22,677 nt of DNA from a virus: positions 1-22,677 of the IMG/VR virus record IMGVR_UViG_3300031974_000445; one strand, given 5' to 3'. Each line of letters starts with the position of its first letter. Position 1 is the stretch's first letter. Position numbers and translations under genes: made by a program. The notes under the pieces are model-generated. The model made no database searches, was not told where the DNA came from, and saw nothing but the letters and a program-made list of their open reading frames with translations. Positions 16,203 to 22,555 of this stretch are shown here, one piece after another.

Positions 16203-16219
16203 AGTTGCAGCCTGCAACT
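16203..16219. promoter_or_regulatory. Iteron-like palindrome on the promoter -35
   Basis: AGTTGCAG-C-CTGCAACT, with 8-bp perfect arms. Its core GTTGC-N5-GCAAC has the same bases and spacing as the iterons at 19750-19806 inside the initiator gene. It covers the -35 box, so the replication initiator may also control this promoter (inference). Confidence 0.6.
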
Positions 16220-16233
16220 AACTATTATATACT
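16205..16233 (+). promoter_or_regulatory. Sigma70-like early promoter
   Basis: TTGCAG (-35, 16205-16210), 17-nt spacer, TATACT (-10, 16228-16233, 5 of 6). It lies directly after the terminator and before the 38-aa ORF and the DUF932 gene. A palindrome covers the -35 (16203-16219) and a second one starts in the -10 (16230-16247), so the promoter is very likely repressed or autoregulated. Confidence 0.75.
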
Positions 16234-16247
16234 GCAAGTATGCAGTA
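16230..16247. promoter_or_regulatory. Operator TACTGCA-N4-TGCAGTA, copy 1
   Basis: TACTGCAAGTATGCAGTA is a perfect 7-4-7 palindrome overlapping the -10 and start site. The same 7-bp arms and 4-bp spacing recur at 20539-20556, and a degenerate version is at 18608-18625. All three are inside or across promoters. Confidence 0.7.
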
Positions 16248-19067: not shown

Positions 19068-19338
19068 TGCTTGCAATACACACACCAATTATTTTGTGTG
19101 CATTTTAGCTACAATAGAACCCGCAACATATCACACGATATGTTTAGATTGTTACGATGGTGAATCATGGCAAACAAAAATCGCAACAAAGGCAACTACC
19201 ACGAAAGGTGGTTCGTCAACTGGCTCCAAGAAAAAGGGTTCAAAGCGAAAAGGCAACCTCTCAGCGGCAGCTTGGGAGGAGAATATAGCGGGGACATCAT
19301 CTGGGAAATCGGACAAGAGCGACTGGTGGTGGAAGTAA
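19006..19338 (+). CDS. Doubtful Cys4 zinc-finger frame
   Basis: The frame fills the 99-nt gap between the Xre gene and the nuclease gene and there encodes YCDACNTHTNYF followed by ICLDCYDGE, a two-CxxC zinc knuckle of the kind seen in small phage proteins. It has no ATG or GTG start: only a TTG at 19006 inside the Xre gene. Its second half overlaps the nuclease gene and is low-complexity Lys/Ser/Gly, probably not meaningful. It may be a non-ATG gene, a +1-shifted extension of the Xre protein after the A7 run at 19032-19038, or a relic. Confidence 0.3.
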   Translation: MASRSKSTRKKLTLGRKQYCDACNTHTNYFVCILATIEPATYHTICLDCYDGESWQTKIATKATTTKGGSSTGSKKKGSKRKGNLSAAAWEENIAGTSSGKSDKSDWWWK

Positions 19339-19529
19339 AGTACCGCGACAAGTCAAACTTTCCCAATCCATTTACAGTTGTAAGAGATGTTTTGTTTTAC
19401 AAGCGCAAGACAGGCTCACCGAAAACGCTTGTAATATTTGATGGCGATGTATTTGCTGAAAGGATTGCGCCATTACTAAAGGAGAACCAACATGTCGTTT
19501 CTACTGATGGCGAGGGCAATCAAAGCTGA
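19167..19529 (+). CDS. Hjc-like Holliday junction resolvase / PDDEXK nuclease
   Basis: A 120-residue protein. NKGNYHERWFVNWLQEKGF (residues 7-25) with Glu13, RQPLSGSLGGEYSGDI (29-44) with Asp43, and VVEVKYRDKSN (54-64) with Glu56 and Lys58 are the signature of the Hjc/VRR-like PD-(D/E)xK fold. 'SG..g....DI' followed by 'EvK' is typical of phage and archaeal Holliday junction resolvases. It would cut branched recombination or replication intermediates, as T7 endonuclease I does. It is next to the replication and annealing genes. GGTGA precedes the ATG. It overlaps the initiator gene by 38 nt. Confidence 0.75.
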   Translation: MANKNRNKGNYHERWFVNWLQEKGFKAKRQPLSGSLGGEYSGDIIWEIGQERLVVEVKYRDKSNFPNPFTVVRDVLFYKRKTGSPKTLVIFDGDVFAERIAPLLKENQHVVSTDGEGNQS

Positions 19530-20154
19530 CATCCCTGATTGCTATGCCAAGTGGCTTATGGTCGTACTTGCTGACCATGCCGATGAACATACACACGAAT
19601 GTTTCCCTAGTTTGTCACGTCTATCTGACCGCACACAAATGAGTGTGGCTACAATTACTAGGAAACTCAATTGGTTAGAGGATCACGGGCTGCTTACAAG
19701 AGTGCGTGGCTCATACCGCAAGTCTACCATCTATACAATATTTCCTAGTGTTGCACAGAGCAACGAGGTTGTTGCAGACAGCAAGTTACCTGTTGCAGAC
19801 AGCAACACTAACCTATCAATTAACCCTCCAGTAAACAAAAAGATATTGGTGCCAGAAGATTGGTGTCCAAGTGAGGAGTTGTGCAAGTCGATCAATGAAA
19901 AGCTAGAAGAGGATCAGGACCATGAGTATGAAGCAGATCAGTTCCGTTGTTACCATGCCAGCAAAGGCAGCAGATTCGTCAGCATTGACCTCGCTTACAG
20001 AGGCTGGTGTCGCCGCGCCTTTAAGTGGAGAGCAGATGGATCAAGGTCGGGATCGTTTACTAACAATAAACAGTCCATCAGAGGCAGACAAAAGGCTAGT
20101 CACTTCGCTGGAATCTTATCTGGGCTTTCCAGTGCGGCAGATAAGCAGAACTAG
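19492..20154 (+). CDS. Replication initiator, lambda O-like
   Basis: A 220-residue protein with strong start AAGGAGAACCAACATG. Residues 1-85 are a phage replication-protein winged helix (HTH_36-like): YAKWLMVVLADHADEHTHEC, FPSLSRLSDRTQMSVATITR, KLNWLEDHGLLTRVRG. Residues about 86-107 form a linker encoded by three direct repeats. Residues 140-185 (ADQFRCYHASKGSRFVSIDL, AYRGWCRRAFKW) are the C-terminal part common in phage initiators. The linker repeats are iterons, so the gene likely contains its own origin, as lambda O does. It overlaps the next gene by 119 nt. Confidence 0.75.
   Translation: MSFLLMARAIKADIPDCYAKWLMVVLADHADEHTHECFPSLSRLSDRTQMSVATITRKLNWLEDHGLLTRVRGSYRKSTIYTIFPSVAQSNEVVADSKLPVADSNTNLSINPPVNKKILVPEDWCPSEELCKSINEKLEEDQDHEYEADQFRCYHASKGSRFVSIDLAYRGWCRRAFKWRADGSRSGSFTNNKQSIRGRQKASHFAGILSGLSSAADKQN
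19750..19812. repeat. Three 21-bp iterons: candidate replication origin
   Basis: Three copies spaced exactly 21 bp start at 19750, 19771 and 19792: GTTGC-ACAGA-GCAAC, GTTGC-AGACA-GCAAG, GTTGC-AGACA-GCAAC. Each is an imperfect palindrome GTTGC-N5-GCAAC. An AT-richer segment follows (about 19806-19855). The position between the two domains of an O-like initiator gene is that of the lambda origin. Confidence 0.7.
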
Positions 20155-20557
20155 GTTCCTTGAAAGCAGCCTTGAGATCATTGTCAAAGGCTATGAGATA
20201 ACAACAAAGGACATAGAAGGTTTGAATAGGGCCATAATCGCTGCTCAGAAGGCACTGACGCCATTTACAGCACAGCAGCTAGAGGAACAGCTAACCGCTG
20301 TTGCAGCCCTTGTAGTGAAGCCTTCAAACGAATCTTCTCAAGATCATGCAATGCGGATTAAAGCTACAGCTATCAAGCTGCAAGATTATCCAGCAGATAT
20401 TGTGAAGTATGCGCTTGAGCGTGTGGTCGAGTCGTCAACATTCTGGCCCTCATACGCAGAAATATACAAGCACATCGAGTGGCGTGTGCGTAACAGGAAC
20501 CTGTTACTGGATGCGCTTTTAAAGAAACGTGTTGCACTTACTGCACAGTTGCAGTAG
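20036..20557 (+). CDS. Putative helicase loader / primosomal protein
   Basis: A 173-residue protein from the ATG at 20036, chosen because GGAG lies 6 nt upstream; the frame is open further to 19922. The C-terminal half has 'HAMRIKATAIKLQDYPADIV', 'KYALERVVESSTFWPSYAEI' and 'YKHIEWRVRNRN'. The 'yP.d.v..al......fWPs.aEi' pattern is found in phage proteins downstream of initiator genes that are thought to act with DnaB-type helicases. The O-then-P gene order supports this. No ATPase motif is present, so it is not DnaC-like. Confidence 0.6.
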   Translation: MDQGRDRLLTINSPSEADKRLVTSLESYLGFPVRQISRTRFLESSLEIIVKGYEITTKDIEGLNRAIIAAQKALTPFTAQQLEEQLTAVAALVVKPSNESSQDHAMRIKATAIKLQDYPADIVKYALERVVESSTFWPSYAEIYKHIEWRVRNRNLLLDALLKKRVALTAQLQ

Positions 20558-20580: not shown

Positions 20581-21393
20581 ATGAACAGACTAGGATTTCT
20601 AGGCGGCTCAGATATGCGCCGCATAATGAATGGTGATTGGACATCACTGTGGGAAGAAAAGACAGGCAAGACAGAGCCTGATGATCTATCCAATGTGCTG
20701 CCTGTGCAGCTTGGAGTATTTACAGAACAGTTCAATATCAATTGGTTTGCTGACCAGCATCGTTGCAATGTTAGAAAGCAACAGCATTGCGTTGAAATAA
20801 ATTGGGAAGGTGTGCCGCTCAAAGGAACTGTAGATGGATACATCTGGGACAACAGCGGATCTGAAAATACTTTCACTGATGACATCATTGAGTGCAAGCA
20901 CACATACGATGCCAACAACATGCAGCAATGTTTGCAGATGTATATGCCACAGATACAGTTTTACATGTGGTTACATCAAGCCAAGGGCTGTTATCTATCT
21001 GTAATCTTTGGCAATCGTAGATGGGAATCTGTCTATGTTTCAATTGATTGGGATTACATTCACAAAATGCAAGTCCACATCAAAGAATTTTGGAGGCTGG
21101 TTCGTGATGACACCCGCCCTTTTGCTGATGATGAGATACCACCTGTATCCATAGACAAGATCAAAGTAGATGGCATGACACGCAGAGATGCGTCATCTGA
21201 CAATGAGTTTATTAGCAGATGCCATGACTACATTGAGCAAGAACAAAACGCCAAGCTATTTGAATCAGCCAAGGCTGACCTCAAAGCTATGGTCGGAGAT
21301 GATGAGCGAGAAGTTTACTGTGACCTTCTCACCATCAAACGCGATAAGCGCGGATCACTTCGTGTCACAGTAAAGGAGAACCAGAATGTCTAA
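20581..21393 (+). CDS. YqaJ-like viral recombinase exonuclease
   Basis: A 270-residue protein of the lambda-exonuclease/YqaJ PD-(D/E)xK fold. LGFLGGSDMRRIM (residues 4-16), LGVFTEQFNINWF with Glu49 (44-56), LKGTVDGYIWD with Asp85 (80-90), IIECKHT with Glu104-x-Lys106 (102-108) and QIQFYMWL with Gln124/Gln126 (124-131) are the active-site motifs. It degrades one strand of double-stranded DNA ends to expose ssDNA for the annealing protein next door. It starts after AAGGAGAACCAAC and is driven by the operator-bearing promoter at 20532-20560. Confidence 0.88.
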   Translation: MNRLGFLGGSDMRRIMNGDWTSLWEEKTGKTEPDDLSNVLPVQLGVFTEQFNINWFADQHRCNVRKQQHCVEINWEGVPLKGTVDGYIWDNSGSENTFTDDIIECKHTYDANNMQQCLQMYMPQIQFYMWLHQAKGCYLSVIFGNRRWESVYVSIDWDYIHKMQVHIKEFWRLVRDDTRPFADDEIPPVSIDKIKVDGMTRRDASSDNEFISRCHDYIEQEQNAKLFESAKADLKAMVGDDEREVYCDLLTIKRDKRGSLRVTVKENQNV

Positions 21394-21847: not shown

Positions 21848-22164
21848 TGTTCCACGTGAAACAGCTACAAACCATTGAGGATGAACTCAAAAGGATCAAC
21901 AACAATTTGGAGAAGCTGGTTATGCTGGCTTCCCCACCACCAGCCAAACCAAAGAAACTGATTGAGACATCAAACAAATATCCACGCAAGTTTCTAACTA
22001 CAATCAAGGGTAGGTATAGAACTGTAGAAGAGATTGGCAAGTATCTAAACTTGTCTACTCAAACAGTTACAACCTACATCAAGTTAGCTAGGGCTGACGG
22101 ATACATTATCAATCGCAAACATGGTGGCTTGTACAAGCTACAGAAGGGACAGATCAATGACTGA
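21847..22164 (+). CDS. HTH protein beginning MFHVKQ
   Basis: A 105-residue protein. The ATG at 21847 is preferred over 21841 because GGAGGT lies 8 nt upstream and the start forms TAATG with the previous stop. Residues 7-25 are a coiled-coil helix (IEDELKRINNNLEKL); residues about 40-105 form an HTH (FLTTIKGRYRTVEEIGKYLN, LSTQTVTTYIKLARADGYII). A DNA-binding regulator or partition-like adaptor is possible. The first codons contain the parS-type site. Confidence 0.7.
   Translation: MFHVKQLQTIEDELKRINNNLEKLVMLASPPPAKPKKLIETSNKYPRKFLTTIKGRYRTVEEIGKYLNLSTQTVTTYIKLARADGYIINRKHGGLYKLQKGQIND
21848..21863. promoter_or_regulatory. Consensus parS (ParB-binding) site
   Basis: TGTTCCACGTGAAACA fits the bacterial chromosomal parS consensus TGTTNCACGTGAAACA at every base. 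A 15-base fixed match is expected about 2 in 100,000 times in a window this size. It lies in the first codons of the 105-aa HTH gene. No parA or parB gene is in the window, so a host ParB is the likely partner if the site is functional. Confidence 0.75.
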
Positions 22165-22555
22165 ATATGACAACACTAACTCCGGCATAGCTGGTAAGCC
22201 TTGGCCCGAACAGAACTTTATCTTGCAGGGCAAGCTAAACATCATGGGTGAGGATGGTCACGTTGCTATCATTACGGCTCAAACCAAAGCAGGAGAAAAG
22301 CGTCTTGAGGTATACCAAAAGGTAGGTGTGCTGTTTGAAAACAAAGACAAGACAGATGATGACAACAAACCAGATTACTCTGGCCCTCTTGATGGCATAC
22401 ATCAGGATTGGCGTATTGCTGGATGGCGCGGTGAGAAAGACGGACGCAAGTATCTATCACTCAAGGTGTCAGAGATGCAGCCAAAGGATGAGGAATCAAA
22501 GCCAGAGCCACAAGAAACATCTACACAAGAGCTAGATGATGATATACCATTCTAA
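22157..22555 (+). CDS. SSB-like protein with DDDIPF tail
   Basis: A 132-residue protein from the ATG at 22157 (AGGGA upstream; 8-nt overlap with the previous gene). The body has alternating strands (NFILQGKLNIMGEDGHVAII, LEVYQKVGVLFENKDK) and IAGWRGEKDGRKYLSLKVSE, which resembles the DUF736-type small beta domain. The end is an acidic tail, QELDDDIPF, identical in its last six residues to Escherichia coli SSB, the peptide bound by many host repair proteins. A phage ssDNA-binding protein is the best reading; the OB fold is not proven. It is the last gene of the exonuclease-annealing group. Confidence 0.65.
   Translation: MTEYDNTNSGIAGKPWPEQNFILQGKLNIMGEDGHVAIITAQTKAGEKRLEVYQKVGVLFENKDKTDDDNKPDYSGPLDGIHQDWRIAGWRGEKDGRKYLSLKVSEMQPKDEESKPEPQETSTQELDDDIPF

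Follow-up and report, generated by a model that had tools for sequence, protein, structure and literature searches.

Where in its genome does a phage begin replication, and can the site be recognised from sequence? The locus considered here raises this question within a stretch of viral DNA of 22,677 nucleotides (the window), in which palindromic repeats lie inside the gene for an O-like replication initiator. The repeats had been read as a lambda-like origin. On comparative grounds, the initiator gene very probably does contain a replication origin of the phage, as in lambda, with intragenic iterons and an initiator that joins an HTH_36 domain to a DnaT-like domain and is not lambda O. The features of origin organisation seen at this locus include repeats inside the initiator gene between its two domains, iterons that vary with the HTH, and a weak stretch of 40 bp adjoining the last iteron.

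The Initiator Gene and Its Protein

The initiator gene (19492..20154, + strand) encodes a protein of 220 aa that is recognised by its matches to PF13730 (HTH_36, 1.4e-11), phrog_1032 (replication initiation, 5.3e-24) and phrog_391 (O-like, 2e-11), and by its AlphaFold2 model. The protein consists of a winged HTH (HTH_36; residues ~1-90), a disordered linker (~91-120), and a three-helix C-terminal domain (~125-185, with the helices of the model at 128-185). Model confidence is low (pLDDT 48-57) across residues 91-110, where the repeats are encoded, with the winged HTH before and the three-helix domain after; the repeats thus do lie in a linker between two domains, as had been proposed. The lambda O family (Phage_rep_O) is absent among the Pfam matches of the initiator up to E 1, and the protein is, by its profile matches, O-like only in the wide sense of phrog_391, outside the lambda O Pfam family.

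Structural comparison with the PDB covered the winged HTH, for which the best matches are winged-HTH structures, including 4pql and 4pt7 (titled "Structure of initiator"). A search of BFVD with the initiator model returned many HTH phage proteins, with poor superposition over the whole length. The DnaT DNA-binding domain (PF17948) is matched by five of 25 members of the initiator family (best 9e-5), and the window protein falls below threshold; DnaT chains match the C-terminal domain of relatives at E about 0.4. Profile scans of genome contigs gave no match to the family profile or to the U7 initiator.

Iterons in the Linker

The repeats occupy positions 19750-19806, which read GTTGCACAGAGCAAC-GAGGTT-GTTGCAGACAGCAAG-TTACCT-GTTGCAGACAGCAAC, three units with a period of 21 bp. 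None is assigned to a strand. Iteron 1 (GTTGCACAGAGCAAC, 19750..19764) is defined by direct reading, a mismatch scan and arm covariation among relatives; iterons 2 (GTTGCAGACAGCAAG, 19771..19785) and 3 (GTTGCAGACAGCAAC, 19792..19806) are defined by direct reading and the mismatch scan. The middle unit has a single arm mismatch, GCAAG for GCAAC. With this qualification, direct reading bears out the original prediction of three GTTGC-N5-GCAAC repeats phased at exactly 21 bp, starting at 19750, 19771 and 19792. The peptide encoded across them, VAQSNEVVADSKLPVADSN, is the one that the repeats had been said to impose on the protein. When one mismatch or fewer is allowed, GTTGC-N5-GCAAC has seven matches in the window (1.1 expected; maximum of four in 100 shuffles), three of which are the iterons, and a scan for like palindromes 18-26 bp apart finds the iteron array as the sole cluster in the 22.7-kb window.

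A spacing of 21 bp is also seven codons. In a wider set of initiators, collected by scans with the initiators of Pseudanabaena phage Pam5 and Salmonella phage SI5 (185 genes, 42 at 85% identity), periods are mostly 21-24 bp and include 22 and 23 bp, which are not whole codons. These 22- and 23-bp spacings in relatives suggest that a distance of about two helical turns is maintained independently of the reading frame. In most of the 42 initiators, palindromic repeat pairs stand above the level of synonymous-codon shuffles, and the arms are clade-specific; because the lineages in this set are not independent, these counts exceed the true number of events. The same scan gives no significant pair in L083, L086, L088, L094, L098, L141, L182 or L250. 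All 33 of the 33 repeat clusters found in initiator genes begin 230-400 nt past the ATG, in the linker, and their density is 1.14/kb in initiator genes versus 0.054/kb across 220 kb of flanking DNA. The linkers of L083 and L088, two distant initiators, carry GTAGC-N5-GCGAC with an identical central arm mismatch, which may be a real asymmetric site.

Selection on the DNA of the Repeats

The linker was read in 64 plus 21 further IMG/VR records of relatives. The architecture of the repeats is kept while the letters change: most relatives have GTTGC/GCAAC, and others have GTCGC/GCGAC (L065-L070), GATGC/GCATC (L074), GGTGC/GCACC (the L050 group) or CTCCG/CGGAG (the L060 group). The linker peptide of the L060 group is VLRESEGVLRES where others have VADSN. 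It had been suggested that relatives conserving the peptide without the DNA repeats would speak against an origin; the opposite is seen, in that the DNA architecture is kept while the peptide varies.

Among 37 distinct iteron units, changes on both sides occur at all five arm pairs. Compensatory cells number 21, versus 3.7 (sd 1.6) after shuffling, and covariation is 0.382 versus 0.121; in a control, sliding the arm partners by one to three columns abolishes the signal. Arms that can pair, and that preserve pairing through changes on both sides, would also be expected of 5-bp mRNA hairpin stems tuning how the initiator, or the loader gene that overlaps it, is translated. Yet G-U accounts for just two of 165 paired arm cells, though RNA stems would tolerate many, so the repeats appear to act as duplex DNA rather than as an RNA hairpin. 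The spacing of about two DNA turns, the tracking of the HTH by the arms, and an Rfam search without a match likewise weigh against hairpins, an explanation that we regard as highly improbable. The scarcity of G-U pairs was the reason for setting aside an RNA role of the palindromes.

Codon choice within the repeats differs from that in the remainder of these genes (p at most 4e-7 for each codon). GTT is used in 26/29 cases within repeats versus 37/99 elsewhere, GCA in 32/36 versus 71/189, the serine codon AGC in 20/27 versus 47/239, and the asparagine codon AAC in 26/26 versus 86/167. Copy number also varies: the close family has two or three iterons, and the near-identical initiators of Salmonella phages SI8 (L086) and SI5 (L089) differ by one 24-bp unit, present in SI5, a natural copy-number variation. 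Such variation would fit repeats that form a minisatellite in a flexible linker and persist by chance or because of the peptide, but the codon bias inside the repeats and the compensatory arm changes both contradict this, and the same DNA architecture occurs with different peptides; there is very little chance that the repeats are of this kind. The repeats are a selected DNA element and not a by-product of the peptide, as judged from relatives, because these co-change the arms, bias the codons, and concentrate the repeats in the linker.

Iterons and the HTH Domain

Natural domain swaps link the iterons to one half of the protein. L086 and L177 have a C-terminal domain in common (88%) and differ in HTH clade and iterons, whereas L086 and L182 have the HTH (94%) and the iteron in common and unrelated C-terminal domains. 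In enteric loci the C-terminal domain is freely swapped between initiators. The iterons thus belong to the HTH: among the 42 diverse initiators, their sequence switches when the HTH clade does and does not follow the C-terminal domain. The expectation that linker repeats would change together with the HTH is therefore borne out in the relatives, in which the arms co-change on both sides and follow the HTH clade.

The Upstream Promoter Palindrome

A single iteron-like palindrome, GTTGCAGCCTGCAAC (16204..16218, no strand assigned), lies 3.3 kb upstream, after a terminator, where it overlaps a conserved early promoter (16204-16246; weak -35 TTGCAG, 17 bp, -10 TATACT). It is a candidate operator, outside the core claim of an origin. 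The inverted repeat ACTGCA-AGTA-TGCAGT follows the palindrome within the same region (16204-16246). This arrangement of promoter and palindrome recurs in many relatives, and the promoter copies of L068 and L074 have the odd arm that the second iteron has in their lineage. In lineages with GGTGC or CTCCG iterons, the promoter site was not found in the 4-5 kb upstream. Autoregulation by the initiator through the palindrome at 16204 is plausible from its sequence and position, and another regulator is also a candidate.

The promoter copy raises an alternative for the intragenic palindromes as well, which might be operators for the early operon, bound by the initiator or another HTH protein, with replication starting elsewhere. 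Both the recurrence of the promoter palindrome in many relatives and the odd arm shared in L068 and L074 favour such a role. Against it, the intragenic copies are phased and number two to several, weak DNA and an AACC array adjoin them, and distant lineages have such an array at the same place, in the linker; we consider this explanation improbable. Operator and origin use can coexist, as they do for plasmid iteron initiators.

Weak DNA and the AACC Array

Directly 3′ of iteron 3, the least stable 40-bp window of the region 19401-20300 starts at 19808 and ranks in the top 1.9% of the whole window. This stretch (19808..19847, no strand assigned), which holds the AACC repeats, is a candidate DNA-unwinding element. 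An AT-richer stretch beside the repeats, as originally predicted, is thus present at the 40-bp scale, but at 60 and 100 bp the stretch at 19808 is not special in stability. GC skew, which had also been proposed as an indicator, does not point to 19.8 kb; its sign changes near 16-17 kb, with gene orientation, which dominates it, and it was given no weight.

The candidate element contains an array, ACTAACCTATCA, whose first AACC lies at 19810..19813 and whose second lies 12 bp further, at 19822..19825 (both + strand); both copies are assigned by recurrence across lineages. In general, the array begins a few bases past the last iteron and consists of AACC every 11-13 bp, often followed by ~RTCA. 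It is found in marine-type, enteric, Pseudomonas, cyanophage and gut-phage initiators, in which the encoded peptides differ (NL, T, EP), and the AACC occurrences use all three reading frames (27/43/15). An AACC chain is present in 12 of 15 diverse lineages and ranks first among 256 tetramers, while the best tetramer not overlapping AACC within that motif reaches 4. The summed chain length over the 15 lineages is 38, versus 18.5 (maximum 28) in 500 peptide-preserving codon shuffles. Gene by gene, the array is mostly non-significant against codon shuffles; the combined and cross-lineage tests are significant.

No description of the AACC array was found in a search of an open-access library. A tentative reading, to which we give somewhat less than an even chance, is that HTH_36-type phage origins widely share the array as a second, hitherto undescribed element, serving as a strand-opening or helicase-loading signal, with the iterons as a fast-changing private address. 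Since the array persists across unrelated C-terminal domains and hosts, its reader may be some conserved component of the machinery, perhaps a host protein.

The Neighbouring Candidate Loader Gene

The next open reading frame (19922..20557, + strand) overlaps the initiator gene by 233 nt (19922-20154) in a different frame, and an overlap of ~218-280 nt of open frame is found in all close relatives. The frame is conserved in 16 relatives, and its AlphaFold2 model has a pLDDT of 82.8. For residues 115-183, the best of 990 chains is 1no1 (SPP1 G39P), with a Z of 7.0, a level that chance can give, an rmsd of 2.4 over 65/67 residues, and 18% identity. The product and 15 homologues have no match to the P-like helicase loader family phrog_109. 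In other lineages, the same position is occupied by DnaC-like loaders, P-like loaders (phrog_109) or DnaB-like helicases, and the next genes of L086 and L088 are named "DNA primase/helicase" in their records. The product is a candidate helicase loader with a G39P-like domain, as the weak fold match of its model fits the position of the gene. The initiator lies in a replication-recombination module that also includes a resolvase (phrog_244, Hjc-like; 19167-19529), a YqaJ/RecE-like exonuclease (20581-21393) and an SSB-like gene (22121-22555).

Comparison With Known Origins

In lambda, the iterons of ori-lambda lie in the O gene, and the same holds for the Stx phages P27 and 933W (PMC7466680). 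In P27, synonymous changes in the iterons abolish plasmid establishment (PMC7466680). The window resembles lambda in its imperfect-palindrome iterons midway in the initiator gene, with an AT-rich stretch adjoining and a loader gene next; the annotated iterons of lambda occupy the same kind of place within O. In contrast to lambda, the initiator is of the HTH_36 type rather than the lambda O Pfam family, the iterons are GTTGC-N5-GCAAC at a 21-bp period rather than 18-bp iterons spaced 20-24, and the loader candidate is G39P-like rather than P. The AACC array of the window is absent from the corresponding place in lambda. The term "lambda-like" therefore suits the geometry and the probable mechanism, but not family membership.

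In SPP1, oriL lies inside gene 38, with direct repeats and an AT-rich unwinding element; gp38 is the initiator and gp39 the loader (PMC6316719). The window shares with SPP1 repeats within the initiator gene and an AT-rich stretch as a candidate unwinding element; its candidate loader resembles gp39 by a weak fold match. Unlike in SPP1, no second origin was found for the window phage, and no phage DnaB-type helicase gene was identified in the examined part of the window. DnaT is described as binding single-stranded DNA through a three-helix bundle (PMC4132743). The C-terminal domain of the initiator likewise has three helices, with profile similarity to that of DnaT in several relatives, but it is joined in one protein to a winged HTH, which probably recognises a specific site, and the window member is below threshold. 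The intragenic kind of origin is known from lambda, the Stx phages and SPP1. What sets the window apart is its type of initiator, the cross-clade arm covariation and, above all, the AACC array.

A Model for Initiation

From lambda, the Stx phages and SPP1 we infer a sequence of binding, opening, loading and replication start. The winged-HTH half of the initiator would bind each 15-bp palindrome, probably with two HTH units per palindrome, and the three sites, 21 bp apart on one face of the helix, would form a nucleoprotein complex. This complex may strain the weak, AACC-bearing DNA at 19808-19847 until it opens. The three-helix, DnaT-like C-terminal domain might then hold single-stranded DNA, contact the loader encoded by the overlapping next gene, or both, and the G39P-like loader would deliver a host DnaB-type helicase.

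Significance

The HTH_36 "O-like" protein is the product of a common and little-characterised phage gene, and its putative origin can now be recognised directly in the sequence. With the probable origin inside the gene, a recombination event that exchanges the HTH would take the matching iterons with it, and enteric loci show such a pattern. From the many HTH domains and palindromes that occur in natural pairs, the recognition code of the HTH_36 domain could be deduced. If real, the AACC array would be a general strand-opening or helicase-loading signal of phages, with a role comparable to that of the bacterial DnaA-trio.
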